A DNA stretch of 37,214 bases from Candidatus Sumerlaeota bacterium (GTDB lineage: Bacteria > Sumerlaeota > Sumerlaeia > JAFGJS01), in contig JAFGJS010000158.1 of the NCBI GenBank assembly GCA_016928995.1, forward strand, positions 1-37,214. Reading direction: 5' to 3'. The translations under genes were made by a program, and so were the position numbers. Every line of letters begins with the position of its first letter. The stretch's first letter is position 1. The notes below the pieces were generated by a model. That model did no database searches. It saw nothing but the letters and a program-made list of their open reading frames with translations, and was not told where the DNA came from. Positions 8,238-31,060 of this stretch are shown in pieces.

Positions 8238-10094
8238 TCATTCGTGGTGTAAAAATGTATGAATTTGCCGGGCGAGCGCAGGATTGATCCCTTCGGCCTG
8301 CGTGAGTTCCTCTTCGCTGGCGGTTTTGATGCGGGCGAGGCTGCCGAAATGGTTGAGCAGTGCGCGGCGGCGTTTGGGGCCGACGCCGGGGATTTCATCG
8401 AGGATCGAGCGCAGGTTGGCCTGGCTGCGCAGTTTTTTATGATACGTGATAGCGAAGCGGTGCGCTTCGTCGCGAATGCGCTGCACGAGATACAGCGCGG
8501 GCGAACCATGCGGCAGGATCACCGGATTTTTGCGGTTGGGCAGGAACAGCCGCTCCTCGGTGCGGTATTTGCTCCGCTCCATCCGCTTGCGCAGCGCGTT
8601 GGGCATGTCTTTCAGGCGGCTCTTGGCCAATCCGGCGAAAGGGATGCCGCTGACGCCGAGTTCATGCAACGCCTCCAGCGCGCTGTTGAGCTGTCCCTTG
8701 CCGCCATCCACGATCACCAGGCCGGGCATGTCTTCGCCTTCGCGTTGCAGGCGGCCGTAGCGGCGTTGGATTACTTCCTTCATCATCGCGAAGTCGTTCG
8801 AACCTTCCACGCTTTGAATCTTGAAGCGCCGGTAGCCGGCTTTGTCCGGTTCGGCGTTCTTGAAGCGCACGAGCGAGCCGACGGAGAGCGTTCCCTGGAT
8901 GTTCGAGATGTCGAGGCATTCGATCACGCTGGGGAGTTCTGGTAGTTTCAGCGCCGTTTGCAGTTCGCTCAGCGTCGCCTCCGCGTCGCGCTCCGCCACG
9001 GTGAGTTTGTGGATTTGATCTTCCGCATTAGCCAGGGCGAGCCGGACCATCTCGCGCATGCGCCCTCGCTCCGGGGCGCGAAGATGCACGGGGCCTTCGC
9101 GTTTTTGCGTCAGGATTTCCTCAAGCGCCGCGCTGGACGCCGCCGGATGCGAAAGCAGAATTTCTCGCGGAATTTCGCGCTCTCCGCCGTAGAATTGCAT
9201 CAGGAATTCCGACATCAGCATTTCCAACTCCTGGCCGACGTCTTTAAAATCATAGCGGCGGCTTTCACCCAGAAATCCATTGCGGTAATGATGCACAGCT
9301 ACGGCGTGTCGCCCTTCGCCTGTGGCGATCGCCACGACATCCTGATGCGTCGATGGATCAGTAACAACGGTTTGCTTTTCCTGCATGTTGGCGACCATGC
9401 GCAGCCTGTCGCGGAGTTCCATGGCCCGTTCGAATTCGAGGCGCGCTGAATGCGTTTCGATTTCCTGCTTCATCCGCCGGGTCAGCTCGTCGCGCCGCCC
9501 CAGCAGGAACAGCCGCACTTGCTGCACGAGTTCAGCGTATTCCTCGCGCGTCGCCTGGCCCACGCATGGCGCGCAGCACTTGCCCACATCATGCAGGATG
9601 CACGGCCGTGCGCGGTTGTAAAAGTCGCCGTCCTTGCAATTGCGCAAGGGAAAGAGCTTTTGCAGGTTGCGGATCGTCTGGCGCACGGCGCGCGCCGAGC
9701 TGAACGGACCGAAGTACAGCGCACCGTCATTCAGCCTTTTACGCGTGAATTCGATTTTCGGCCAATCGGATTTTGGATCGATGCGGATCAGGAGAAAATT
9801 TTTATCGTCGCGCAGGTTCACATTGAAATGCGGCTGATGTTTTTTGATCAGCTCGTTTTCCAGCAGCAGCGCCTCTTTTTCATTGACCGTGACGATGGTC
9901 TGGATCGAGCAGACCTTGCGCAGGAGGAACGAGATTTTCACCCGTTCGTCCTGGCCGGTGAAGTATTGCCGCAGCCGTGCGCGCAGGTTTTTCGCCTTGC
10001 CGACGTAGAGCGGCCGTTCCGTGCGGTCCAACATCAGATAGACGCCCGGCTGTGTCGGGTACTGGCTGAGATCGTCGAGTGCGAGTCGAGTCAT
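8238..10094 (-). CDS. uvrC: UvrABC excinuclease subunit C
   Basis: 618 residues, full length for UvrC, which makes both incisions in nucleotide excision repair. An N-terminal GIY-YIG nuclease domain (residues ~12-95; PGVYLMLD and PLYVGKAKNLRARLRQYF) makes the 3' cut. A cysteine cluster (ILHDVGKCCAPCVG) follows at about 165-180. A UVR motif (~205-240; SARLEFERAMELRDRLRMV) is the UvrB-binding helix pair. The RNase H-like endonuclease domain (~385-540; ECLDISNIQG, VIVDGGKGQLNSAL, AHRFAITYHKKLR) makes the 5' cut. Tandem helix-hairpin-helix motifs end the protein (ILDEIPGVGPKRRRALLNHF). Start ATG is fixed by the conserved N-terminus. It appears monocistronic. Confidence 0.97.
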   Translation of the reverse strand: MTRLALDDLSQYPTQPGVYLMLDRTERPLYVGKAKNLRARLRQYFTGQDERVKISFLLRKVCSIQTIVTVNEKEALLLENELIKKHQPHFNVNLRDDKNFLLIRIDPKSDWPKIEFTRKRLNDGALYFGPFSSARAVRQTIRNLQKLFPLRNCKDGDFYNRARPCILHDVGKCCAPCVGQATREEYAELVQQVRLFLLGRRDELTRRMKQEIETHSARLEFERAMELRDRLRMVANMQEKQTVVTDPSTHQDVVAIATGEGRHAVAVHHYRNGFLGESRRYDFKDVGQELEMLMSEFLMQFYGGEREIPREILLSHPAASSAALEEILTQKREGPVHLRAPERGRMREMVRLALANAEDQIHKLTVAERDAEATLSELQTALKLPELPSVIECLDISNIQGTLSVGSLVRFKNAEPDKAGYRRFKIQSVEGSNDFAMMKEVIQRRYGRLQREGEDMPGLVIVDGGKGQLNSALEALHELGVSGIPFAGLAKSRLKDMPNALRKRMERSKYRTEERLFLPNRKNPVILPHGSPALYLVQRIRDEAHRFAITYHKKLRSQANLRSILDEIPGVGPKRRRALLNHFGSLARIKTASEEELTQAEGINPALARQIHTFLHHE

Positions 10095-10429: not shown

Positions 10430-13114
10430 TTAAGCCGTTAAGGCAATGCCATCTGGCGTGACATCCATGATCATAAAGGATCTTTGTTTATTGTATCCGA
10501 AGGCTCGAGATTCAAATTCGGGCCACTTTCCTCCATCTAATTTACCGCCTCCGCCCGTGGTGATGTAAACAGTGTCGTTGTAGACTTTAGATCGTTCATA
10601 AAAGTGGTTGTGGCCGGCAAAAACGAAATCGACGCCATATTCTTGAATTATAGGCGTCAGAATTCGACTGCGGCTTTTCGATGGACCGTGGGCGAGCTCC
10701 GAGCCGAGTATTGGATGATGCATCAGCAGAATTTTCCATTTCGACGTGCAGAGGGACAACTGGTTTTTGAGCCAATCGATTTGAACCGGATCAATCCGCA
10801 TTATTTCGGAATCAATGCAAAAGAAGGTCAGTTCATCGTCGCCGAATGTTTCCGTGTAATATCGCATGCCGTGCATGCCGAATTGCGGCATCTTGATTTC
10901 ATCATCGACAAAACCATTGTAATAATCGTGATTTCCCAGAACGGCATGGATTGGAATGCGGTCGGCGATGATGGATTCATAAGGCGACAGGAAACATGCT
11001 TGGATGACTTTGGCATAATCGCCTTTTGCGTATGCGTTGTCGCCCAATAGTAAGACGCTTGTGATTCTTTTGCTCTTGCTTTGAAGATAAATTTGCTTGG
11101 CGACTGCATAATTATGGGAATTATCAATGCCGGTGTCGCCTGTGAACGCAAATCGAAAAAAGCCTGGTTGTTTCAACATCTGCTGATTTGGAGATTTCTT
11201 GAACAAGATCAGATGTTCATCGGCGACAATGTCCTCGTATACTTTTCGATATCCAAGATTCGATAAAGACTGGGACTGCTCCGCGGCGTTCAGTTTGTCG
11301 GTTAATAGCAGCTCAGGCAGCTGATCTGGCTGCGATGGAAGCAGTTGTCCGGGTTTGATTCGATCGACTGTGTATTGTCCGTCGATTCGTTTTTGTTGAT
11401 TGACATTGTCGCCAAGCACTCCCAGGCGTTGTTCGCTTCCTTGATCATGAATATAATTGTTTAATATTTTGTTGAAATATAGCGATGTATCCATGTGTGA
11501 CATTGCAGGATTGATCGCCGAATATTGAACAAAGCTGAGCAGCACCGCGACAATCGCCATGTTGAGAAACAGCGTCTTCGAGGATTTGATGCTTCGATAA
11601 TGCAATATCAATACGATTATAATAAGCAGGCCGGAAAATAAGGCTATTGCCGCGCCAGTGAACGACAAGTGAAACTGATGGGACCAGATTAAGAAGGGAT
11701 TGGCCATGAATGTTATCGATCCGCCGATTAAAACAAGAGCGATCGATGAGCTCAAAACCAGATATGTTCCGATCAGCCATTTATGATTAAAATTTTTGGA
11801 ATGTGACGCATCGTATGTCCAGCTGAGAGAAAATGAAAGTCTGAATGCGCACAACACGCCCCATAGCAGTACGATCAATAGTGTGGGAAAATGAAGTTGA
11901 GAAGAGCAAACCGCTCGAAGGCCGGGCAGCAGTTTATCGCTGTAGCTCGACGAGAAAAGAACCAGCAAAAAACAGATGAGCAAGATTGAAACGATCAGGC
12001 TTTGTTTTTTGTCAGTCATTATAGGGGGCTGGATCATTCCGCCCAATGCCAGAATCGCCGTAGTTGTCGTAATCAGATGCGCAAATCTTGCCTGGGGCGA
12101 GCAGATGAGCAGCAGCATGAACATGGCGCCCAATTCCATCAGCAACTCCGGGCGCGGTGAAACATCGTCTCCGGAAAACCAGAACAGCGCCAATGTGATC
12201 ATCGCAAAGAATCCGCAGATTGTCATCGCGACAGTTTTGGCTTGTTTTGAACTCAGGTTGAGCGATCCTGCTTCAGAGTCGTGACGATATCCTCCGGATA
12301 TAATTTTTTCATCGCATAAAAGAGTCTGCAATGAAGTCATCAGCGAATGTCCGACCAGCACGTTGTGACTGACCATGCCGTCCACTCTTGCCGCGCCCTG
12401 TTGCTTCCATTCTTTGAGCATATGATAATGATGAACGGGCCCGAACCAGAGCGAAGGGGCGATCAGCACCCAGAAGAATAGCGCCAGCGCCAGTTTCCCG
12501 GCGGTTTTCCATTGCCGTTTGGCGATGAAATAAACGGTGAAGAACACGGGCATGTATTTCAAAATACCCAAGCCCAGGATCAACGCGCCCAACCATGTCT
12601 TACGTTTGCAGAGAATGATCCACAAGCCAATGACGGTCAGGCTGTAAACAGGAAGGTTCCATTGCCCCAGTTTAATATTATCCCAAATAAAACGGCCGGC
12701 GATCAGCAGCATAAAAATCCATGCGAGTTTGCTGAAACGTTTGCCGGACAATTCCTGATGCGCTTGAAGCGCCAGAAGCAGCAGCATGACATTGACGCCG
12801 ACCCACACCCCTTGCGCCAGGGGAATCGGCATGATCGTCAGCGGCGCGAGGATCATCATGTTGAAAGGAAGATACTTATAATTCTTGCCTAGTTCATCTA
12901 CGTTATAGGGATTGCCGCCTGTTTTCTCAAGTTTTGCCGCTGCCAGCGAGTAATTGGTCAGGTCTCCGCGGATTTTCCACTTCGCGGGATCACTGGATAA
13001 CTTGGAGTCTTTGATCACCGCCAATGTCGTGACTACGGCGAAAAGCAACAACCATTTCCATGCGCGATTCCAGATGAATATTTTATGCTGAGCGCCATTC
13101 GGATCTGTATTCAA
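10430..13114 (-). CDS. Membrane glycosyltransferase (GT87-like) fused to a metallophosphoesterase
   Basis: 894 residues, apparently a two-domain fusion. Residues ~18-530 contain a dozen or more hydrophobic segments. The early DLTNYSLAAAKLEKTGGNPY (51-70) and the following YLPF resemble the catalytic loop of DUF2029/GT87 enzymes, GT-C transferases using polyprenyl-phosphate sugars. Residues ~653-894 are a calcineurin-like phosphoesterase with the complete metal set: GDTG (659-662), GDNAY (691-695), GNHD (727-730), HHP (799-801), GHNH (834-837) followed by YERS. This order is that of purple-acid-phosphatase-like enzymes. Residues 531-650 are a soluble linker region. No hydrophobic segment follows ~530, so the phosphoesterase sits on the same side as that linker, probably outside. 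Start is TTG 13114 with GGAG upstream. Composition is AT-richer than uvrC. Confidence 0.85.
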   Translation of the reverse strand: MNTDPNGAQHKIFIWNRAWKWLLLFAVVTTLAVIKDSKLSSDPAKWKIRGDLTNYSLAAAKLEKTGGNPYNVDELGKNYKYLPFNMMILAPLTIMPIPLAQGVWVGVNVMLLLLALQAHQELSGKRFSKLAWIFMLLIAGRFIWDNIKLGQWNLPVYSLTVIGLWIILCKRKTWLGALILGLGILKYMPVFFTVYFIAKRQWKTAGKLALALFFWVLIAPSLWFGPVHHYHMLKEWKQQGAARVDGMVSHNVLVGHSLMTSLQTLLCDEKIISGGYRHDSEAGSLNLSSKQAKTVAMTICGFFAMITLALFWFSGDDVSPRPELLMELGAMFMLLLICSPQARFAHLITTTTAILALGGMIQPPIMTDKKQSLIVSILLICFLLVLFSSSYSDKLLPGLRAVCSSQLHFPTLLIVLLWGVLCAFRLSFSLSWTYDASHSKNFNHKWLIGTYLVLSSSIALVLIGGSITFMANPFLIWSHQFHLSFTGAAIALFSGLLIIIVLILHYRSIKSSKTLFLNMAIVAVLLSFVQYSAINPAMSHMDTSLYFNKILNNYIHDQGSEQRLGVLGDNVNQQKRIDGQYTVDRIKPGQLLPSQPDQLPELLLTDKLNAAEQSQSLSNLGYRKVYEDIVADEHLILFKKSPNQQMLKQPGFFRFAFTGDTGIDNSHNYAVAKQIYLQSKSKRITSVLLLGDNAYAKGDYAKVIQACFLSPYESIIADRIPIHAVLGNHDYYNGFVDDEIKMPQFGMHGMRYYTETFGDDELTFFCIDSEIMRIDPVQIDWLKNQLSLCTSKWKILLMHHPILGSELAHGPSKSRSRILTPIIQEYGVDFVFAGHNHFYERSKVYNDTVYITTGGGGKLDGGKWPEFESRAFGYNKQRSFMIMDVTPDGIALTA

Positions 13115-19393: not shown

Positions 19394-21034
19394 ATGAATA
19401 ATTCGGATAAAAAAACGCTGCTGGGTTCGACGGGGCTGGTGGGAGCGTTTACGCTGCTGAGCCGGGTGCTGGGCTTTGTGCGCGATGCGATGATGACGCA
19501 CTTCCTTGGCTCCTCCGGCGCGGCGGCGGTTTTTTGGATCGCGTTTCAGATTCCGCATTTCTTGCGGCGCGTGGTCGGGGAGGGATCGCTTTCGGCGTTC
19601 ATTGTGCCGGTGTATAGCGGCATTGAGCGGGAGCGTGGCGAGGCTGACGGCTGGAACTATGTCAGCAATGTGTTCAATGTGTTCGCCGTAGTGACGCTGA
19701 TCCTGAGCGCGGTGTTGGTTCTGGTTCCCCAGCCGCTTTTCTTTCTCTATGGCGGCAGCAAGTATTTCTACGAATCCGGGCTGGAAGAGCAATGGCGCCT
19801 CGGCGTGCGGCTCACACGCATCATGATGCCATTCGTGATGCTGCTGGCCTTGACGTCGCTGTTGATGGGCGTGCTGCATGCGCGGCGGCATTTCCTCGCG
19901 CCGTCAATGGGTTCGATCATTGTGAATCTGATCATGATTCTATGCGGCTGCGCGTTCGCCGTAATCGCTGGAAATCCATCGAATCCCTTAATCGATAGAA
20001 TGGATGCGTTGCCTTCATTCGAGAATCGATTCGTTGTGGTGATCGCTTGGGCGGTGATACTGGGCGGCGTGCTTCGCGTGTTGATTTTGCTGCCTCCGCT
20101 GCTCAGCCGAGGCTGGCGTTGGCGGCCTTTGTTCAACTGGCGCGATCCGGGAGTGATCGAACTGGCCCGCAAAATGGTTCCGGCATTCGTGGGGCTGGCG
20201 GTGTACCAGTTCAATCTGATGGTGAACATGACGCTGGCGGCCTGGATCAGCGATGCGGCGGTGAGCTACATCACGTATAGTCAGCGATTGATGCAGCTGC
20301 CGCTGGCGATCCTGGCGACGGCGATGGCGACGGCGATCTTGCCGCAGCTCACGTCGTATGTGCTGGAGCAGCGCAAGGTGGAATTGCGCGGGCAGCTGGA
20401 TTTTGCCTACCGGATTCTGGCGGTCGTTTATCTGCCGGCCACGGTGGGGTTGATCGTGCTGGGCGGGCCGATTGTAAAGTTCATTTTTCAGAGCGGGGAG
20501 TGGACCGCCGCTGATTCGGCCGGGACGCATTTTGCGTTGATTTTTTATGCGCTGGGTTTGCTGGCGGTGGGGATTCAACAAATCCTGACGCCAGTCTACT
20601 ATGCGCAAAAGGATATGGTATCGCCAGTGAAGTTCGGAGCGATCTCTGTCGCGGTGAATCTGACGCTGTGTTTGATTTTAATGCAGACGCGGCTGACCTA
20701 TGGCGGATTGGCGCTGGCTGGAACATTGAGCGTGATGTTCAACGTGTGCTTGCTGCATCGCGGGCAGCGTGAGTTGATCGGGCCGTTTTTCACGGCGCGG
20801 ATGCTGCATTCGCTCTGGCGGACGGCGCTGGCCGCGTTGATTATGGGCGCGGCGTGCTATTGGGGTTATGGCTGGACGGCGCGCGCGCTGCACGTGGAAG
20901 GACGCCTGACCGTTGCGATGGCGGCGCTGGCCTGGGTCGCGGCCGGAATCATGATCTATGTGGCTGCTTGCTGGCTTCTGCAGTTGAAGGAACTCAATAG
21001 CGTCATGGATATTCTTCGCCGGCGCAGGAAATAA
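19394..21034 (+). CDS. murJ: Lipid II flippase MurJ (MviN)
   Basis: 546 residues with about 14 transmembrane helices, matching MurJ, which flips lipid II across the inner membrane for peptidoglycan synthesis. Signature segments are STGLVGAFTLLSRVLGFVRD (12-31; the Arg residues line the cavity), FQIPHFLRRVVGEGSLSAFI (the GEGSLS motif, usually GEGA), and LMGVLHARRHFLAPS. Mid-protein KMVPAFVGLAVYQFNLMVN and YSQRLMQLPLAILATAMATA follow the usual MviN order. AAGG touches the ATG, an unusually short spacing, but the N-terminal family motif fixes the start to within a few residues. It converges on the recQ-like gene. Confidence 0.96.
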   Translation: MNNSDKKTLLGSTGLVGAFTLLSRVLGFVRDAMMTHFLGSSGAAAVFWIAFQIPHFLRRVVGEGSLSAFIVPVYSGIERERGEADGWNYVSNVFNVFAVVTLILSAVLVLVPQPLFFLYGGSKYFYESGLEEQWRLGVRLTRIMMPFVMLLALTSLLMGVLHARRHFLAPSMGSIIVNLIMILCGCAFAVIAGNPSNPLIDRMDALPSFENRFVVVIAWAVILGGVLRVLILLPPLLSRGWRWRPLFNWRDPGVIELARKMVPAFVGLAVYQFNLMVNMTLAAWISDAAVSYITYSQRLMQLPLAILATAMATAILPQLTSYVLEQRKVELRGQLDFAYRILAVVYLPATVGLIVLGGPIVKFIFQSGEWTAADSAGTHFALIFYALGLLAVGIQQILTPVYYAQKDMVSPVKFGAISVAVNLTLCLILMQTRLTYGGLALAGTLSVMFNVCLLHRGQRELIGPFFTARMLHSLWRTALAALIMGAACYWGYGWTARALHVEGRLTVAMAALAWVAAGIMIYVAACWLLQLKELNSVMDILRRRRK

Positions 21035-21124: not shown

Positions 21125-23446
21125 TCATTCGCTTTCCGTGTCGCGTTCGATGTTGCGGATGACGGCGAGGGTGATCTGGATGTGGTGGAGCGAAACGGCG
21201 CCGTCAAGCAGGTAGAAAAGCTGCTTGGGCTGCTTATCGAGGCCGAAGTTATGGGCGGCGGCGTGGATGCGGGCGAAAAGCGGAGGCGGCGTCCAGGGCT
21301 GGGCTGTCTTCAGGTTGTTTTCCTGGATGTATTCGAGCAGGAGCCGGAGCGCGCCAGCCGGGGTTTTGCGGATGGCCTTGGCGACGTCTTCCAACGGGTG
21401 GCGAGCGTAGAACATTTCAAAGGCGCGTTCCTTCGCAATATTTTCACGCTCCTGTTTATCGGCGTATGGTCCGATGCGCGGCCGGATTTTATGCGGACGC
21501 CGCTGAGCTGATTCTGTCTGTTGTGTTGAGGGTTCGTCTTGTTCGCTGCGAGATACGGCGGCCGAGCGTTGAGGCGCGTTGGGATCGACATCCAGGCGCA
21601 GAGAGTTCTTGCGGCAGTAATCGACGATGAAAGCAATGAATTCGTCGGCGTATTTCTCGGCCTTGGACGGACCGACGCCGGAGCACTGGAGAAAGCCGTC
21701 AAGACTGGACGGACGGCGGCGGGCCATGTCGCGGAGCGCGGCGTCGCCGAAGATCATGGCGGCGGCGATGCGTTCGATGTCCGCGATGCCGCGACGAACC
21801 TTATGCAGGTGATCGAACAATCCGCGATCCACTCCTTCCCAGTCTTTTTCCGTGAGCCGCTCGACTTTGGGCTTTTTGATCACGCCGCCCCAGGAGGTGG
21901 TTTTCAGTTTTACCGGCTCAGGTTGAGCGACAGCTGATTCCAGCGTAAGCGCCACGATTCCAACGCCTGTTTGAGGTTCGAAGAGGGGGAGCGATTCAGC
22001 GGTCTTCAGCGCCTTCCAGCCTTGCTGGGTCAAGGTGAGCGGGTCGTTTTCCGTGCCGCCTTGCAGGCATTGCCGGGCGATGAGCTGCTCGATGAAATCG
22101 CGCGCGTCCGAGGCGCTCCAGGGCGCCAGGGCGGAGAAATGCGGACCGGGCACATGTTCGCTCCGGGCCACGGCATCGTCGTTTTCACCGGCGAGGAGTT
22201 TGGCGGTGAAGGCGGCGTCATGCTCGCCGTTTAATGCGGCGACGCACTCGAGGATTTTCTGGGCGGTCTCTCCAGCGTCGCGGATGAGGGGAAGGCCGCC
22301 AAGGCAGATGTCGCACGCGCCGCAGTTGGGCGAACCCGACGGAAGGCCGAAGTAACTTGATAGCGTGTTGTGGCGGCAGCCGATGCCTTTGCAGAATTGG
22401 AAGATCGCATCGAGCCGGGCGAGCGCCGGTTTCTTCTCGGTGTTTTCCAGGCTGGCATGATTGAATTGCCAGTAGCCGAAATCCGTGAGGGCGAAGATCA
22501 GGGCGCGCTCGGAGTTTGGGCCGCCTTGAGCGAGCAGCGCGGTTTCCTGCTGAAAACGTTCGAGCGACGGCGGCATGCCGGCGTGGATCGTGACGCGCGG
22601 AGCTCGATGGAGCGCGGGCAAGGGGAAGCCGGTCAGCGTGACCAGCGTGTCGATGCGTCCGGCTTCATAAGCCTCGATGTGCAGATTGCGCTGGCGCTCG
22701 GGCATGGCCGGCATGACAGCCGCGACCTTGTGGCGTTTACGCGCGAGGAACGCAGCGAGCGGCTCCGCGTCGTTGGGACGCATAACGTAAATCAGACCGG
22801 GCTTGCCTGCATTCCGGGCGATGATCGCTTCGGCCTGGCGCGGAAGTTCAGCGGTCTTTTCGACACGCAGCAGCACTCCGGGCAAGACAGCGGGCGCCGC
22901 GATGCGTTCGGGCCGCTCCAACTGCAATGTCCGTTCGATCCAGGCTTGCGCTTCCGGAGTCTGATGCGGACTGCATGCGCAAATCGCGGCATCGGGGAAG
23001 AATTGCCGCAGGCGCTTGAGCGCCTCGTGATCCGCGTGAAACTCGCCGCAGGCGCGCACGGCGCGATGGGCGTCTTCGATGATGATTTGCGCGGGCGCGG
23101 AGTGGCGCAGCAGGTCGGCGAAACCTTCCGATACGGCGCGATGCGGAGTGACGCATAGGATGCGGAGCGATCCGTCGCGCAGGCGTTTGCGCGTTTCGAT
23201 TTGCTGCTGGAAGGACGCGCCGCCGCCCAGCATCGCCACGGAGTCATCCAGCTGCTCCAATGCCGCGTCGTCCAATCCTTTGGCGCGGATGAGCAGGACA
23301 AGTCCGGCGAGCTCGTGCGCGCATTCGAGACAGAGCTCGAGCGCCTGTTGTCGCGAGGCCAAGAGCAGAACGTCCTTGCCTGCCTGCATCGCATCGCGCA
23401 GCCGGTCGCGGCATGTGGCGTCAATGTTATCTGAATGCTGATTCAT
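21125..23446 (-). CDS. RecQ-family protein with degenerate ATPase; intact zinc and HRDC modules
   Basis: 773 residues. The layout is that of RecQ: helicase lobes 1-2 (~1-340), zinc-binding RQC (~345-490), HRDC (~535-615) and an extra C-terminal domain (~650-773). The zinc site is plain: C357, then C375, C378 and C381 in NCGACDICLG after SYFGLPSG, at the same spacing as the four E. coli RecQ zinc cysteines. HRDC has GVGPSKAEKYADEFIAFI. The ATPase is not intact. The Walker A position reads GKDVLLLASRQQALEL (23-38) with no GGGKS, and DEAH is EDAH (124-127) within IIIEDAHRAV. So ATP-driven unwinding is unlikely; it may bind structured DNA or serve as a partner. The last ~80 residues contain a helix-turn-helix-like HPLEDVAKAIRKTPAGALRL. 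It lies 70 bp downstream of fabD. Confidence 0.8.
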   Translation of the reverse strand: MNQHSDNIDATCRDRLRDAMQAGKDVLLLASRQQALELCLECAHELAGLVLLIRAKGLDDAALEQLDDSVAMLGGGASFQQQIETRKRLRDGSLRILCVTPHRAVSEGFADLLRHSAPAQIIIEDAHRAVRACGEFHADHEALKRLRQFFPDAAICACSPHQTPEAQAWIERTLQLERPERIAAPAVLPGVLLRVEKTAELPRQAEAIIARNAGKPGLIYVMRPNDAEPLAAFLARKRHKVAAVMPAMPERQRNLHIEAYEAGRIDTLVTLTGFPLPALHRAPRVTIHAGMPPSLERFQQETALLAQGGPNSERALIFALTDFGYWQFNHASLENTEKKPALARLDAIFQFCKGIGCRHNTLSSYFGLPSGSPNCGACDICLGGLPLIRDAGETAQKILECVAALNGEHDAAFTAKLLAGENDDAVARSEHVPGPHFSALAPWSASDARDFIEQLIARQCLQGGTENDPLTLTQQGWKALKTAESLPLFEPQTGVGIVALTLESAVAQPEPVKLKTTSWGGVIKKPKVERLTEKDWEGVDRGLFDHLHKVRRGIADIERIAAAMIFGDAALRDMARRRPSSLDGFLQCSGVGPSKAEKYADEFIAFIVDYCRKNSLRLDVDPNAPQRSAAVSRSEQDEPSTQQTESAQRRPHKIRPRIGPYADKQERENIAKERAFEMFYARHPLEDVAKAIRKTPAGALRLLLEYIQENNLKTAQPWTPPPLFARIHAAAHNFGLDKQPKQLFYLLDGAVSLHHIQITLAVIRNIERDTESE

Positions 23447-23516: not shown

Positions 23517-24434
23517 TCAACCGAGTTCGAAGTCGATGTTTTCCACCCGGTCGCAGTTGATGAGGCTTGGGGCGTTTTCCATGCGCTTGAACAAGCCGCA
23601 AAGCACCTTGCCCGCGCCCGCTTCGATCACGGCGTCGGGCTTGGCGTCGAGGATCATTTTCATGGCAGCGATCCAACGGACGGGCGAGGTGATCTGACGG
23701 GCGAGCGAGTCCTTGATCGCTTCGACTCCGATCATGGCCTGGGCGTCGGCGTTGTTGATGAAACTGCAATTGGGCGGCTGAAGGTTCGCGCGGTCGAGCG
23801 CGGCGCGCATTTTATCGGCGGCGGATTGCATCAGGGGGCTGTGGAACGCGCCGCTGACGGGGAGGATCAGCGCGCGCTTGGCGCCGGCCTCGCGGGCTTG
23901 ATCGCAGACTTGTTTGACCGCCGCTTCTTCGCCGGAGATGACCAGCTGGCCGGGTGAGTTGTAGTTGGCGATGCCGCAAACGCCATCGGCGGCCTCGCAG
24001 ATGATTTGCAGTGGCTTTTCATCGAGTCCGAGCACGGCGGCCATGGCGCCGGGATGCTGGACCGCGCAGGCGGCCATGAGCTCGGCGCGCGTCTGCACGA
24101 GGCGCAGGCCCGTGGCGAAGTCGAACACACCTGCGGCGTAGAGCGCGGAGTATTCGCCAAGGCTGTGGCCTGCCACGACGCGAGGGGTAATGCCCTTGGC
24201 CTGGAGCGCGTCGAAAACGATGGCGCTGTGGATGAACAGGGCCGGCTGGGTGTTGTGGGTGTCTTTCAATTCGTTTTCGGAGCCTTCAAAGCAGATCTGG
24301 CTGATCGGGCGTCCGAGAACTGCGTCGGCCTCCTCGAAACGTTGCCGTCCGATAGCGGTTTTATCGCGCCAATCCTGGCCCATGCCGACGCGTTGCGATC
24401 CCTGGCCGGGAAAGACGAATGCGAGATTGCTCAT
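23517..24434 (-). CDS. fabD: Malonyl-CoA:ACP transacylase
   Basis: 304 residues, typical of FabD, which loads malonyl groups onto acyl carrier protein in type II fatty-acid synthesis. N-terminal AFVFPGQGSQRVGMG is the family start, GHSLGEY (89-95) holds the nucleophile Ser 91, and SGAFHSPLM has the catalytic His; the C-terminal VIEAGAGKVLCGL closes the family pattern. ATG 24434 was chosen over a frame start ten codons upstream because CAGGAG lies 10 nt before it and the family starts there. No other fab genes (acpP, fabH, fabG, fabF) adjoin it, so it is separated from the usual cluster. Confidence 0.96.
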   Translation of the reverse strand: MSNLAFVFPGQGSQRVGMGQDWRDKTAIGRQRFEEADAVLGRPISQICFEGSENELKDTHNTQPALFIHSAIVFDALQAKGITPRVVAGHSLGEYSALYAAGVFDFATGLRLVQTRAELMAACAVQHPGAMAAVLGLDEKPLQIICEAADGVCGIANYNSPGQLVISGEEAAVKQVCDQAREAGAKRALILPVSGAFHSPLMQSAADKMRAALDRANLQPPNCSFINNADAQAMIGVEAIKDSLARQITSPVRWIAAMKMILDAKPDAVIEAGAGKVLCGLFKRMENAPSLINCDRVENIDFELG

Positions 24435-24621
24435 GCTGCTGTTGCTCCTGAACTTCAGTGACATTATGCCGGTCTTTGTGCTTGCTTCATGTTTCGACAG
24501 CCCAAGAGGAATATCGAAGCGAAGGCGTTATGGTCAAATGGTTTTTGTGTTCTGCTAATTCTTTGAATTGCTGGGCGAAGGAGCGGGAAGGTTTGAGTTT
24601 ATCACTTATGCCATTGCCGTT

Positions 24622-25920: not shown

Positions 25921-26943
25921 TCAACTCGCCCGGTAACGGCGGCCGGCGCGCATGAAGGCGTGGATGTTCTCCAGCGGCGTCTCCTGCGGCAGGTCACAGC
26001 CCGTGCTGAGGATGAAGTTGGAGTACGGCGCCATTTTTTTCAGCAGGTTGGTCACTTCCGCTTCCACGTCCTGCGATTTGCCGGTGAGCATGCAGCCGGT
26101 CGGATTGATGTTGCCCATCACGGCCACGTCCTCGGGCAGTTTTTGCGCGACCGCCGGAAGATCGACGCCGGCCACGGGCGAGTCGAGGCTAACGGCGCTC
26201 ACTCCGGCGCCGGCCATCTGATCCAGCAAGTGCATGGTGTTGCCGCAGGTGTGGTAGACCGTGGCCACGCCGGTGTACTTGCAGCTCTCGATGATGTGGC
26301 GGATATAATTCGCGGAGAACGCGCCAAATTGCTCCGGTCCAAGCATCACGGCGCTGGGTTCGAGCACGCAAAGCACCTGGGCGCCGGCGGCGATGAGCAG
26401 CCGCGCATATTCCTGGATTCTTTCCGTGGCGTACTGGCAAACTGCGTGCAGCTCGTCAGGCTTCAGGACGGTGGCCATGGCCGCCTCGCCAGCTCCCATC
26501 ATCAGCGCCGCGAGGGTGTATGGACCCGTGACATAGGCGCCTTTCAGGATCGAATCGGGAAGGCCGATGCACATCAGTTTCATCGTTTCAACATAACCCA
26601 GCAGCCGTGTGTCGAAGGCGATGTTGACCTGCGCGCGTTGGGTGAGTTCATCCACGGAAAATTCGCCCTGGACAACGGTGGCGGACTCCGCCTGGGGAAA
26701 GACGGTGTAGCGTCCGAGCGCGTTGGCCTCGACGGCCAGGTCCATCAAGGGGAAGATCACATCCGGCTCGAAAGCCTCGGCGATCGCCTTCATCACCTTG
26801 AAGTGCTCGCCATAGTTCTGCTGCGCGAGTTTAATCGTACAGCCGGTCATGTTGAGTCCGGGGAATCCAACCAGCGGCACAACCAGGCGGCGGCCTTCAT
26901 TTTGCGCTCTGCGAAATTTCTCGCGAAAAGGATTTTGCGTCAT
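25921..26943 (-). CDS. UroD-like methyltransferase (MtaA/CmuA type), copy 1
   Basis: 340 residues. This is the uroporphyrinogen-decarboxylase superfamily, in which corrinoid methyltransferases such as MtaA and CmuA use zinc held by a His-x-Cys pair and a later Cys. All three are visible: H231 and C233 in VYHTCGN, and C316 in LSTGCDLPQETPLENIHAF. Other barrel strands are FPLMDLAVEANALG (64-77), GAYVTGPYTLAALM and MGNINPTG. True UroD keeps other catalytic residues and not this zinc set, so heme synthesis is unlikely. It likely moves methyl groups between a corrinoid protein and a substrate or thiol. It is 39 bp downstream of copy 2, and the corrinoid protein gene is divergent from the pair. Confidence 0.9.
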   Translation of the reverse strand: MTQNPFREKFRRAQNEGRRLVVPLVGFPGLNMTGCTIKLAQQNYGEHFKVMKAIAEAFEPDVIFPLMDLAVEANALGRYTVFPQAESATVVQGEFSVDELTQRAQVNIAFDTRLLGYVETMKLMCIGLPDSILKGAYVTGPYTLAALMMGAGEAAMATVLKPDELHAVCQYATERIQEYARLLIAAGAQVLCVLEPSAVMLGPEQFGAFSANYIRHIIESCKYTGVATVYHTCGNTMHLLDQMAGAGVSAVSLDSPVAGVDLPAVAQKLPEDVAVMGNINPTGCMLTGKSQDVEAEVTNLLKKMAPYSNFILSTGCDLPQETPLENIHAFMRAGRRYRAS

Positions 26944-26982
26944 CGAATGTGCTCCAGGTTGTTACACTCGCATTGTGCCTGC

Positions 26983-27969
26983 TTATGCGTAGCGGCCGGC
27001 GGTTCCATGCTTGATGAATTCTTCGCAGGCATATTCCTGCCACATGGGATCCAGGCCGATGGAGGTATTGTCCCAGTAGTATCCGGCGAGAAATCCGCCG
27101 CGGCCCTTCCAGAGTTTGTCCAGCATTTCCCGAGCCTTGGCGCGGATGATCTCCTCGTCGCGCTTCTGCAGCGTCTTCTGGATATCGACTGGGCACCAGA
27201 AGGTGATCTTGCCATTTTCCTGGTATGAGGCCAGCGTGTCGATGCCGTGAAGGTCGGGCTGGTCGAATTGCAGCAGATCGACGCCCGCTTCCATCAAGCC
27301 GGGGATGATTGCCGCAATCATGCCGCAGGAGTGCATGAAGACCTTGAGATTGAGTTCGTGCGCGATGCCGCAGAGTTTCACGAAGCGCGGAAAGAACTCT
27401 TGCCGCCACATGTCCGGGCTGATCAACAGCTGCGTCTGCGTGCCCCAGTCCTCCAGCAGCATGACGCAATCGCAGCCCTGCGCGGCGTAGTTCCGGATCA
27501 TGTGCTCCAGCATCACGTCGATGCGGTCGTGCAGTTCATGCATCCGGTCCGGCTCAAGGAACAGGTCCATCAGGTACTGATCAAGCTTGCGCATCTTGCG
27601 GGCGATATTGAAGGCGAATCCGGGCAGGTCGCCGATGAGCCACTTGTCAGGATGATCGGCGCGGCGTTTGGCCACGCAGGCGTAGTCTTCCGGCTTGGAG
27701 TAGTCGGGGAATTCGTAGGAGTCCAAGTCTGATATGTTCTGCAGCACGCCTTTGACGACTTCGCCTTTGGATGTTTTGTCAATTCTGGCCCAGAGGTTGC
27801 CCCATTCATCGGTGCGTTCCCAGCGCCCGCCGCCAATCTCGCGCCAATCGGTGGAATGGGTTTGGGCGGAGCATCCGCCGCTGACGATGTCGGAGTTCTT
27901 GAAAGATCGGGCGACGCGTTCCGGTCCTTCGAAGTCAAGCGTGAGTCTTACGATTTCTCGAGCTGTCAT
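26983..27969 (-). CDS. UroD-like methyltransferase, copy 2
   Basis: 328 residues. Zinc-type residues are H213 and C215 in FMHSCGM; a possible third is C259 in ITFWCPVD. The segment MLLEDWGTQTQLLISPDMWR (170-189) is typical of the subgroup of UroD-like proteins associated with corrinoid proteins. N-terminal REIVRLTLDFEGPERV is the normal family start. ATG 27969 has AAGGAAG 6-12 nt upstream; a frame upstream to 28149 has no ribosome site and runs through the promoter region. The substrate is unknown. By analogy with methanol, veratrol-type ether and chloromethane systems, one UroD-like enzyme demethylates the substrate onto the corrinoid and the other may pass it on. Which does which cannot be told. 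Confidence 0.9.
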   Translation of the reverse strand: MTAREIVRLTLDFEGPERVARSFKNSDIVSGGCSAQTHSTDWREIGGGRWERTDEWGNLWARIDKTSKGEVVKGVLQNISDLDSYEFPDYSKPEDYACVAKRRADHPDKWLIGDLPGFAFNIARKMRKLDQYLMDLFLEPDRMHELHDRIDVMLEHMIRNYAAQGCDCVMLLEDWGTQTQLLISPDMWRQEFFPRFVKLCGIAHELNLKVFMHSCGMIAAIIPGLMEAGVDLLQFDQPDLHGIDTLASYQENGKITFWCPVDIQKTLQKRDEEIIRAKAREMLDKLWKGRGGFLAGYYWDNTSIGLDPMWQEYACEEFIKHGTAGRYA

Positions 27970-28020
27970 GTAGTCTTCCTTTGCATGATTGCCGCGACAA
28001 ACACTGTCCGGCCGATTTTG

Positions 28021-28049
28021 ATTATTTTTAAACGTGATGATCAAATCAA
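28021..28049 (-). promoter_or_regulatory. Possible promoter for the UroD-like pair
   Basis: On the minus strand TTGATT (28049-28044), a 17-nt spacer and AATAAT (28026-28021) lie about 50 bp before the copy 2 start. The spacer contains a TGATCA palindrome. Only sequence resemblance supports it. Confidence 0.35.
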
Positions 28050-28111
28050 CGATATTTATATTTTTTATCGGAGAATGTTTTGCCATCGAAATAGATTTGC
28101 CAACGAAGTGC

Positions 28112-28141
28112 TTGACGGGCGGCGATCTGGAATGAATTAAT
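28112..28141 (+). promoter_or_regulatory. Possible promoter for the corrinoid protein genes
   Basis: TTGACG (28112-28117), 18-nt spacer and ATTAAT (28136-28141), about 125 bp before the corrinoid ATG. I see no cobalamin riboswitch B12-box in the leader that follows. Confidence 0.3.
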
Positions 28142-28266
28142 TGTGCCATTATGTGCAGTCCTGAAATGGAATGCGCGGTTGATCGCTGAAGAGCAATGCC
28201 CGGCGCCGTCCGCTTGGCGCGAGCGAAAAATACTTAATCGATTTTGCAATTGCACGGAGGAAGAAG

Positions 28267-28941
28267 ATGGACCAGGTGCTCGGACAGATCGCAGTATGCG
28301 TTGAACGTGGAAAAATCAATATGGCTTCGCCGTTTCCGCCGGACTTGGCCGGTCAGAACGGCGCCGAGGAACTGACGCAAAGCGCGTTGGATGCGGGGCT
28401 TTCCGCTGAGGAAATCTTGAACCAGGGATTGATTGTGGGGATGCAGAAGATCGGCGAGAAATTCCGCAACAATGAGGCGTTCGTGCCGGACGTGCTGCTG
28501 GCGGCCAAGGCGATGAACGCGGCAATGAAATTGCTGGAGCCTTTGTTCAAGGCCGACGCAAATCGATTCAAAGGGACGCTGGTGATGGGCACGGTCGCGG
28601 GCGATTTGCATGACATCGGCAAGAACCTGGCGTCAATGATCATTCAGGGCGCGGGGTGGAAAGTCGTGGACATGGGCGTGGACGTCTCCACGGAGAAATT
28701 CCTGGACGCGATCAAGGCAAACGAAGGCTGCGTGGTGGGCATGTCGGCGCTGCTGACGACGACGATGGCCAACATGGAACAGACCGTCCGGGCGATTAAA
28801 GAGGCGAGTCCTGCGACCAAGGTGATCGTGGGCGGCGCACCACTGAGCCAGGAATTCGCGGACAAGGTGGGCGCCGATTGTTACTGCCCCGATCCGCAGC
28901 GTGGCGCCGAGTTTCTCGAAAGCCTGTCCGCCGGCGCCTGA
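28267..28941 (+). CDS. Corrinoid (B12-binding) methyl-carrier protein
   Basis: 224 residues. The N-terminal four-helix cap (~10-95; LTQSALDAGLSAEEILNQGL) and C-terminal Rossmann-like B12 domain (~100-220) have the MtaC/MttC/MetH-B12 layout. The cobalt ligand motif DxHxxG is D113-L-H115-DIG118 in GDLHDIGKN. The nucleotide-loop segments GMSALLTTT and GGAPLSQEFADKVGAD are intact. The corrinoid is methylated by one partner and demethylated by another. GGAGG is 6 nt before ATG. It precedes the activation-domain gene by 15 nt, and is divergent from the two UroD-like methyltransferases across a 297-bp gap. Confidence 0.95.
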   Translation: MDQVLGQIAVCVERGKINMASPFPPDLAGQNGAEELTQSALDAGLSAEEILNQGLIVGMQKIGEKFRNNEAFVPDVLLAAKAMNAAMKLLEPLFKADANRFKGTLVMGTVAGDLHDIGKNLASMIIQGAGWKVVDMGVDVSTEKFLDAIKANEGCVVGMSALLTTTMANMEQTVRAIKEASPATKVIVGGAPLSQEFADKVGADCYCPDPQRGAEFLESLSAGA

Positions 28942-28956
28942 GTTTCGAATGATACA

Positions 28957-29664
28957 ATGAACGATCCCGGCATTTCAGATCAAACCATCGAAACGGTGAT
29001 TGCATTTGACGAGATTGCCGTTGATGCAGCGTCGTTGATTCAATCAATGGGCTACATCGACTCGGCATGCCCGGAGCCGGTGCGGCTGACGGTTGAGGAG
29101 GCGCTGCTCGAAGCGGCGCCGCATGTTGATATCCGCGGAGGCTATCGGATTTTGCCGGATGATGTGCGGCTGGAAAATTCCGGCGAGATCGAATGCGGCG
29201 CTTGCCGTTTTAAAGTGGGCAAGGTCATCAAGGGGCAACTGCGCAGGGCGCGAAGGCTGGCGTTATTTGCGATCACGATCGGCGATGCGCTGGAAACGCA
29301 GGCGCGTGATTTATTGCGCGGCGATGATCCAGTCAAAGGCTATGTGCTGGATGCTACTGCGTCGCTGATCGTGGAGAGCGCGGCGGACCGGCTGCATGAG
29401 CAGTTGCGCAACGCGGCTGCCGAATGGGGCTGGAAGACCACGAATCGTTTCAGTCCGGGGTATTGCGGCTGGCCGGTCGAGCAGCAGCACATCCTTTTCG
29501 CGCAACTGCCTGCGAAATTCTGCGGCATCACGCTGTCGGAAACGGCCTTGATGCATCCGATCAAGTCGGTCAGCGGCGTCATCGGCCTGGGTGACGGCGT
29601 TGCCTATCATCCCTACCCGTGCGATTTCTGCAACCGCCAGGATTGCTACAAGCGTAAACGCTAG
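28957..29664 (+). CDS. Stand-alone MetH-activation-domain-like protein
   Basis: 235 residues related to the C-terminal reactivation domain of methionine synthase MetH, which binds S-adenosylmethionine and re-methylates oxidised cobalamin. The SAM-binding segment of MetH (RxSxGYxxxP) is seen as RFSPGYCGWP (164-173) after the long helical stretch LFAITIGDALETQARDLL. The C-terminus carries C222-x2-C225-x4-C230 (PCDFCNRQDC), absent in MetH, which could bind metal or an iron-sulfur cluster and may bring in an electron. Such proteins accompany corrinoid methyltransferases in anaerobes. No ribosome site is obvious; the 15-nt distance to the corrinoid stop suggests translational coupling. Confidence 0.85.
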   Translation: MNDPGISDQTIETVIAFDEIAVDAASLIQSMGYIDSACPEPVRLTVEEALLEAAPHVDIRGGYRILPDDVRLENSGEIECGACRFKVGKVIKGQLRRARRLALFAITIGDALETQARDLLRGDDPVKGYVLDATASLIVESAADRLHEQLRNAAAEWGWKTTNRFSPGYCGWPVEQQHILFAQLPAKFCGITLSETALMHPIKSVSGVIGLGDGVAYHPYPCDFCNRQDCYKRKR

Positions 29665-29699
29665 ACCGGATTATCCATTCAGGAATCTTCAAAAAAAAT

Positions 29700-29797
29700 C
29701 TCACGCGAAGGCGCAAAGTCGCGAAGGCCGCTATTAGATATTCACAGAACATGGAATTTGTTCTCCGTGTTCTCTGTGTACTCTGTGGTGAATTTTT
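29700..29797. repeat. Two dispersed repeats in the convergent gap
   Basis: 29700-29729 resembles the CTCACGCGAAGGCGCAAAG repeat class. 29761-29796, read on the minus strand, matches 36798-36834 almost base for base (about 34 of 36): AATTCACCACAGAGTACAC and onward. Both are non-coding and lie between the activation gene and the homocysteine methyltransferase stop. Confidence 0.5.
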
Positions 29798-29809
29798 TTT
29801 TATATTCTA

Positions 29810-30685
29810 TTAAATTTTTCCGATTGCTTTCGCGATGCAACGGATGTGATCCGGCGATGTGCCGCAGCATCCGCCGACCAGACTGGCGCCTGCCGTGATG
29901 CATTCCTGAATTCCAGCGGCGAAGTCTTCCGGCGTCAGATCAAATACGGTATGGCCGTCCGCCAGACGCGGCTTGCCCGCGTTGGGCTGGGCCATGATCG
30001 GGATGCTGACGGCTTGTTTCATGAAACTCACGATGACGGCGGTTTCGCGAGGATCGAGATCGCCGCAGTTCGCGCCGACGGCTGCCGCACCGGCATCGGC
30101 CATGGCCACGGCGATTTCCCTGGCGGTATTGCCCATGATCGTCCGGCCGCCGTTGGCTGTGGTATTGAAGGAGAGGGAAGCGAGCACGGGGACGTCTGCG
30201 ACATCGCGGCAGGCGCGGACTGCGCAGAGCGCCTCGCGCAGATCGAGCATAGTCTCGACGATGAAGCCGTCAACGCCTCCGGCGAGCAGGAACTCAGCCT
30301 GTTCCTTGAATGTCTCGCAGCATTGATCCTCGGTGTATTCCCCATAGGGTTCGAGCAGTTGGCCGGTCGAACTGATGTCGCCCAGCACATAACGCCCTTC
30401 GCCCGCCGCATTTTTAGCGATCCGCGCGCCAGCGAGATTCACCTCTTTCACATCGATGTTCACGTTGTGCGTTTCAAGATAGATGCGATTCATCGTCAGC
30501 GTGTTGGTGATGAGCAAGTCGCAGCCCGCTTCGCAATAGCGCTTGTGCACCGCGAGCACCTCGTCCGGATGTTGAATGCAGTTCTGGCCGCCCATATCCA
30601 GTCCGGCGAGAGCCAGTTGCGTGCCCATCGCTCCGTCGATCAGGATCGGCGTTGTCGCAGTCGCAATCAATTCAGCAAGCTTCAT
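29810..30685 (-). CDS. Homocysteine S-methyltransferase family protein (MetH/BHMT N-domain)
   Basis: 291 residues, the size of the single homocysteine-binding barrel. IDGAMGTQLALAGLD (16-30) and NTLTMNRIYL are family motifs. The zinc cysteines are C207 in GANCGD and C273-C274 in GGCCGTSPDHI, equivalent to the three MetH ligands. So it should activate homocysteine (or a similar thiol) as the methyl acceptor, probably with the corrinoid protein as donor. ATG 30685 has AAGGAG 10 nt upstream; upstream extension to 30796 has none. It converges on the activation gene and is 145 bp from it. No pterin-binding (folate) module is encoded nearby. Confidence 0.93.
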   Translation of the reverse strand: MKLAELIATATTPILIDGAMGTQLALAGLDMGGQNCIQHPDEVLAVHKRYCEAGCDLLITNTLTMNRIYLETHNVNIDVKEVNLAGARIAKNAAGEGRYVLGDISSTGQLLEPYGEYTEDQCCETFKEQAEFLLAGGVDGFIVETMLDLREALCAVRACRDVADVPVLASLSFNTTANGGRTIMGNTAREIAVAMADAGAAAVGANCGDLDPRETAVIVSFMKQAVSIPIMAQPNAGKPRLADGHTVFDLTPEDFAAGIQECITAGASLVGGCCGTSPDHIRCIAKAIGKI

Positions 30686-31060
30686 CTTCGGTGTTCTCCT
30701 TGGCAGTGCCACAAGCAAATTTTTTTCGATCATTGAATTTGTACTCCTATGCTTTGAGATGCAAGCGAAAGTTCTTTTTATATCGGCGATCTGCATTGAT
30801 TGCGACGAAGTGTAGCGTTCGCTTGCTTGATTCGCGTCAGATTGACGCGGCGATGCGGAAGAGTGTGTAATCTTGGAGCGCTATTTTCTCGTAATAAGTG
30901 GCGGAAGTTTTTGTAAATCCTTTAATTCCAAACCCTTTTCAATTTTGGCGCCTTAATTGCAAAAAAATGATGGCAGTTAACGCTTTGGTAGCCATGCCGG
31001 CAGGCCTACCGAGGAAGGTCAAAAAAAGAAGGTTCAGCTCGCAAAAGGAGGTTTGCGAAA
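30686..31060 (+). promoter_or_regulatory. Structured leader of the Hsp20 operon
   Basis: There is no gene in this 375-bp stretch. A 24-bp imperfect palindrome at 30987-31010 (10 of 12 pairs; TGCCGGCA core) precedes a perfect hairpin 31039-31058: TCGCAAA, loop AGGAGG, TTTGCGA. The loop is exactly the Shine-Dalgarno sequence of the next gene, with ATG two bases after the stem. Such an arrangement could gate translation by temperature or ribosome access; no CIRCE or ROSE pattern is seen. Confidence 0.55.

Follow-up and report, generated by a model that had tools for sequence, protein, structure and literature searches.

Dead helicase domains and the RecQ family

Pseudo-helicases with new roles are already known in superfamily 1 (SF1), where AddB and RecC contain helicase domains from which most or all of the motifs are gone and which, alongside an active helicase, serve in Chi recognition (PMC4824097). 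What RecQ proteins, and RECQL4 among them, accomplish non-enzymatically and apart from their motor is a long-standing question. The RECQL4 K525A mouse shows that a RecQ protein can fulfil its physiological role when ATP-dependent helicase activity is missing (PMC6636780), but the mutation was engineered into an enzyme that is otherwise active, and the protein is not a natural pseudo-helicase. A natural RecQ with an erased motor and normally evolving zinc-binding and HRDC domains would separate the non-enzymatic work of those domains from that of the motor. In the literature that we searched, a coverage that leaves subscription papers mostly outside, we found no earlier report of a bacterial RecQ pseudo-helicase.

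Here we describe a candidate from a Candidatus Sumerlaeota bacterium, encoded in a 37,214-nt stretch of contig JAFGJS010000158.1 that is hereafter called the window. The gene (21125..23446, minus strand) is a complete open reading frame of 773 codons with an ATG start and zero internal stops. Its product is best viewed, with a probability of about one half, as a lineage-specific RecQ pseudo-helicase that would act as a non-enzymatic accessory or scaffold beside the active RecQ of the same genome. With the bacterial RecQ family (TIGR01389; E. coli RecQ, 1oyw) it shares the domain order, the zinc Cys4 site, the HRDC core and the predicted fold; unlike that family it has a degenerate motor, has lost contacts in the winged-helix and HRDC domains, and matches TIGR01389 (residues 70-608, E 3.9e-60) with 203.9 bits, below the 640.2-bit cut-off for the curated RecQ family. 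It resembles AddB and RecC in a helicase fold that is kept (here as a prediction), in lost motifs and in having an active helicase alongside; however, those are SF1 proteins and stable subunits of a known complex, whereas the present protein belongs to SF2/RecQ.

A RecQ-lineage protein with a degenerate motor

The order RecA1-RecA2-zinc-winged helix-HRDC is collinear with that of RecQ. The zinc-binding domain (residues 331-384, 22295..22456, minus strand; PF16124, 7.8e-10, 39.8 bits against a cut-off of 25), the RQC winged helix (residues 385-490, 21977..22294, minus strand; PF09382, 7.9e-12, 45.4 bits) and the HRDC domain (residues 537-612, 21611..21838, minus strand; PF00570, 6.6e-18, 64.9 bits) follow one another as in RecQ, all above their Pfam cut-offs, which places the protein in the RecQ lineage. 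The defence gene DpdF, which we considered as a candidate identity, was rejected, as the PADLOC DpdF models concerned fit the genome's active RecQ far better (763 bits versus 244).

In the two RecA-like motor domains (residues 1-330, 22457..23446, minus strand) Pfam does not detect a DEAD domain, and its Helicase_C match, at 13.4 bits, stays below the threshold. The Walker A position (ASRQQAL, residues 30-36, ~23339-23359, minus strand) reads ASRQQALE against LPTGGGKS in the other RecQ of the genome, and thus lacks the GKS/T signature. Alignment to active RecQs further showed that the DEAH box has become EDAH (residues 124-127, ~23066-23077, minus strand), the aromatic-rich loop CISMWGHDFRP has become RAVRACGEFHA, motif III has changed from TATAT to SPHQT and motif V from ATVAFGMGIDK to TLTGFPLPALH, while motif VI, QETGRAGRDG in active enzymes, is QETALLAQGG (residues 300-309) with its arginines gone. 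Motifs 0 and Ia are likewise degenerate and motif IV is changed in part. Only 31 of 95 near-invariant motor columns are kept, as against 85-95 in 30 active RecQs, and the motor has lost 11 of 16 conserved basic residues. In the AlphaFold model the helix after the first strand starts at residue 32 without a preceding glycine-rich loop, and hence no P-loop is expected. As judged from these comparisons, the motifs for ATP binding, hydrolysis and DNA coupling are absent from the protein.

A sequence-only reading of this DNA had described a lost Walker A and EDAH in place of DEAH; both are borne out, and the degeneration extends to the further motor motifs listed above. Its broader picture of a dead motor joined to retained zinc and HRDC domains is supported by the motif alignment, the Pfam matches and the identity ratios given below. 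That reading had also allowed that orthologues with an intact Walker A would point to a sequencing error. This does not apply here: about two-thirds of the roughly 95 near-invariant motor residues are changed, and sequencing error is excluded for that reason. A frameshift is excluded by the in-frame coding signal in every domain.

The protein is predicted to fold as two RecA-like lobes followed by zinc, winged-helix and HRDC domains. In the AlphaFold2 model (mean pLDDT 71.6, pTM 0.50) the RecA lobes and the HRDC domain are confident, with many blocks at 80-96, and the tail is poorly defined. The best 50 Foldseek matches of this model all belong to the RecQ family; it aligns to 1oyw with E 3.5e-30 and to RECQL5 (5lb8) with an rmsd of 3.4 over 402 columns. 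As the other members of the thin 15-sequence alignment behind the model are active RecQs and pull it towards the RecQ fold, we treat the model as supporting rather than independent evidence.

Retained and lost features of the zinc, winged-helix and HRDC domains

All four cysteines of the zinc site (C357/C375/C378/C381) are present, and 8 of 8 near-invariant positions of the zinc domain are kept. In the winged helix the LSTYG motif (L-S-T-x-G) is replaced by G-P-H-F-S, and the net charge is -8 compared with -6 to +7 in active RecQs. Alignment via 1oyw places Ala404 at the position of E. coli R425, which in E. coli RecQ is part of the pocket for the SSB C-terminus. The HRDC domain keeps its core and the basic residues R551, R578 and K595, but in the alignment to the solved HRDC structure 1wud Ala563 takes the place of the tyrosine that contacts ssDNA, E. 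coli Y555, which lies in the motif VPPY. In E. coli RecQ the Y555A change abolishes ssDNA binding by the HRDC domain, which has been inferred to be able to dock on the RecA core as well (PMC4464074).

Thus, the view that the zinc site, winged helix and HRDC domain are fully preserved holds for the zinc cysteines and the HRDC core, and fails for the winged helix and the HRDC tyrosine. By the same token, to speak of selection on the DNA-binding parts goes further than the residues allow: the fold and the zinc residues are kept, but residues of the motor, winged helix and HRDC domain that contact DNA or SSB are lost. These observations bear directly on the function first suggested for the protein, that of a passive binder of DNA structures whose zinc, winged-helix, HRDC and HTH_40 domains would hold forks, junctions and G-quadruplexes without unwinding them. 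The normal rate of change in the HRDC and zinc domains, the three retained basic HRDC residues and a slightly basic linker and tail are compatible with such a role; the alanine in place of the ssDNA-contact tyrosine, the loss of LSTYG and of the R425 equivalent, the acidic winged helix and the missing basic residues of the motor are not what it would lead one to expect, and we consider it rather unlikely.

The C-terminal tail and the origin of the gene

The tail of about 100 residues (residues 669-773, 21128..21442, minus strand) had been taken for a new C-terminal extension of ~120 residues. Sequence profiles instead indicate that it is probably a diverged form of the HTH_40 domain shared with active RecQs of the class, so that the tail would be inherited: a profile of active-RecQ tails, two of which were scanned by Pfam and are HTH_40, matches it at 2.6e-13 (50 bits). 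The putative domain stands at the same place as in the several active RecQs of the class that carry an HTH_40-type tail; the present protein differs from these in its dead motor and in a match to the HTH_40 model itself (PF14493) of 15.5 bits, below the 27-bit gathering cut-off.

The sequence-only reading had advised checking whether the genome also encodes an active RecQ, and one was found on another contig. This protein of 741 residues (L002:1456-3678, contig C29, minus strand) has intact motifs and matches the DEAD and Helicase_C models with 90.7 and 88 bits respectively. It is without HTH_40; its last ~50 residues instead contain a helix-turn-helix resembling GcrA and sigma region 4, for which the Pfam matches fall just below the cut-off. 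It is also the closest relative of the pseudo-helicase found anywhere, at 33% identity overall and 54% between the two HRDC domains. A tree built from the C-terminal half places the two proteins side by side with weak support (88/66). This fits an origin by duplication within the lineage, and on the best reading of the sequence relationships the pseudo-helicase is a paralogue, specific to this lineage, of the RecQ that the genome encodes elsewhere.

Searches for an orthologue with a dead motor returned only ordinary RecQs or nothing in a genome collection of 84,980 species, in the whole class (39 genomes), in 386 genomes across the domain, and in two further phyla, viral contigs and plasmids; no other genome searched belongs to the same family as the source genome. 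As a consequence of this result, any selection on the dead form has to be judged by a single sequence.

Constraint versus decay

We compared the rates of change of the individual domains by an identity ratio, namely the mean identity to 41 active RecQs, all 41 of which have an intact motor, divided by the identity among those RecQs. The two RecA domains have ratios of 0.43 and 0.46, the winged helix 0.73, the tail 0.82, the zinc domain 0.91 and the HRDC domain 0.99. The branch leading to the pseudo-helicase has a length of 10 for the motor (apparently the maximum of the program) against a median of 0.32, and of 1.78 for the C-terminal part against a median of 0.63. By these measures of sequence the zinc and HRDC domains change at the pace usual for RecQs.

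A gene that is slowly dying after duplication, a pseudogene in transit that is open merely by chance, would explain both the very divergent motor and the presence of the gene in one genome only among those searched. We therefore compared it with simulated neutral decay, in which four active templates were decayed to an equal loss of invariant residues in 240 runs. The simulated genes acquired 5.5-6.8 stops on average and in 0 of 240 runs remained free of them, whereas the 773 codons of the pseudo-helicase contain neither a stop nor a frameshift despite the loss of about two-thirds of the invariant motor residues. The non-invariant motor positions score 0.24 against the RecQ profile, where neutral decay gives about -0.25 to -0.41 with an sd of about 0.2-0.26; this is moderate evidence that the fold is kept, as the observed value lies only ~2-3 sd from neutral and the best neutral draw of one template, 0.316, exceeds it. 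Codon periodicity is normal and the coding signal stays in frame through every domain, with normal codon usage in each. Together with the normal rates of the HRDC and zinc domains and the RecQ-like AlphaFold model these results make a dying duplicate improbable, and it is likely that the protein is a folded and maintained pseudo-helicase.

Proposed function

A retained RecQ pseudo-helicase with the features described would not bind ATP productively, translocate or unwind, and would instead work as a non-enzymatic accessory. Its dead RecA lobes could provide a rigid platform, with the zinc/HRDC part docking on a partner: the active RecQ, a different repair factor that binds RecQ, or a DNA structure that is held passively. 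Given that both the arginine of the SSB pocket and the ssDNA-contact tyrosine of the HRDC domain are lost, we favor docking on a protein over simple binding of ssDNA. The first candidate partner is the genome's active RecQ, which the pseudo-helicase may recruit, restrain or position at repair intermediates. The docking mechanism is the uncertain step of this proposal. More tentatively, the protein might be a natural bacterial RecQ pseudo-helicase that acts in trans with the active RecQ, and so, within SF2, a possible parallel to the inactive helicase domains of AddB and RecC.

Gene neighborhood

The gene for malonyl-CoA:ACP transacylase, fabD (23517..24464, minus strand), lies upstream on the same strand across a gap of 70 nt, and murJ (19394..21034, plus strand) is the convergent downstream neighbor. 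Neither hints at a function for the pseudo-helicase, and in a positional orthology check neither was found to be a common neighbor of other RecQs of the class. The remark that the gene sits beside fabD rather than DNA-metabolism genes is thus right for its immediate neighbors; the contig also carries the nucleotide excision repair gene uvrC (8238-10094, minus strand), at a distance of ~11 kb. The genome has a single murJ, and the fabD of this contig is its only stand-alone copy. This makes mis-binning unlikely, and although the genome was assembled only to a draft in 161 contigs, a sequencing, assembly or binning artefact has a negligible probability in view of the intact frame, the spread of the changes over the whole motor and a nearest relative in the same genome.

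Apart from fabD, the genome has a single malonyltransferase-like match (G000:C66:13528-14421), which lies inside an open frame of 2232 aa, by its length probably a polyketide synthase. Elsewhere in the window, a single open reading frame (10430-13114, minus strand) combines a GT87 glycosyltransferase domain with a calcineurin-like metallophosphoesterase domain in an unusual-looking fusion. The region 25921-30796 encodes two URO-D-family proteins close to a homocysteine S-methyltransferase, which suggests a methyl-transfer gene cluster.
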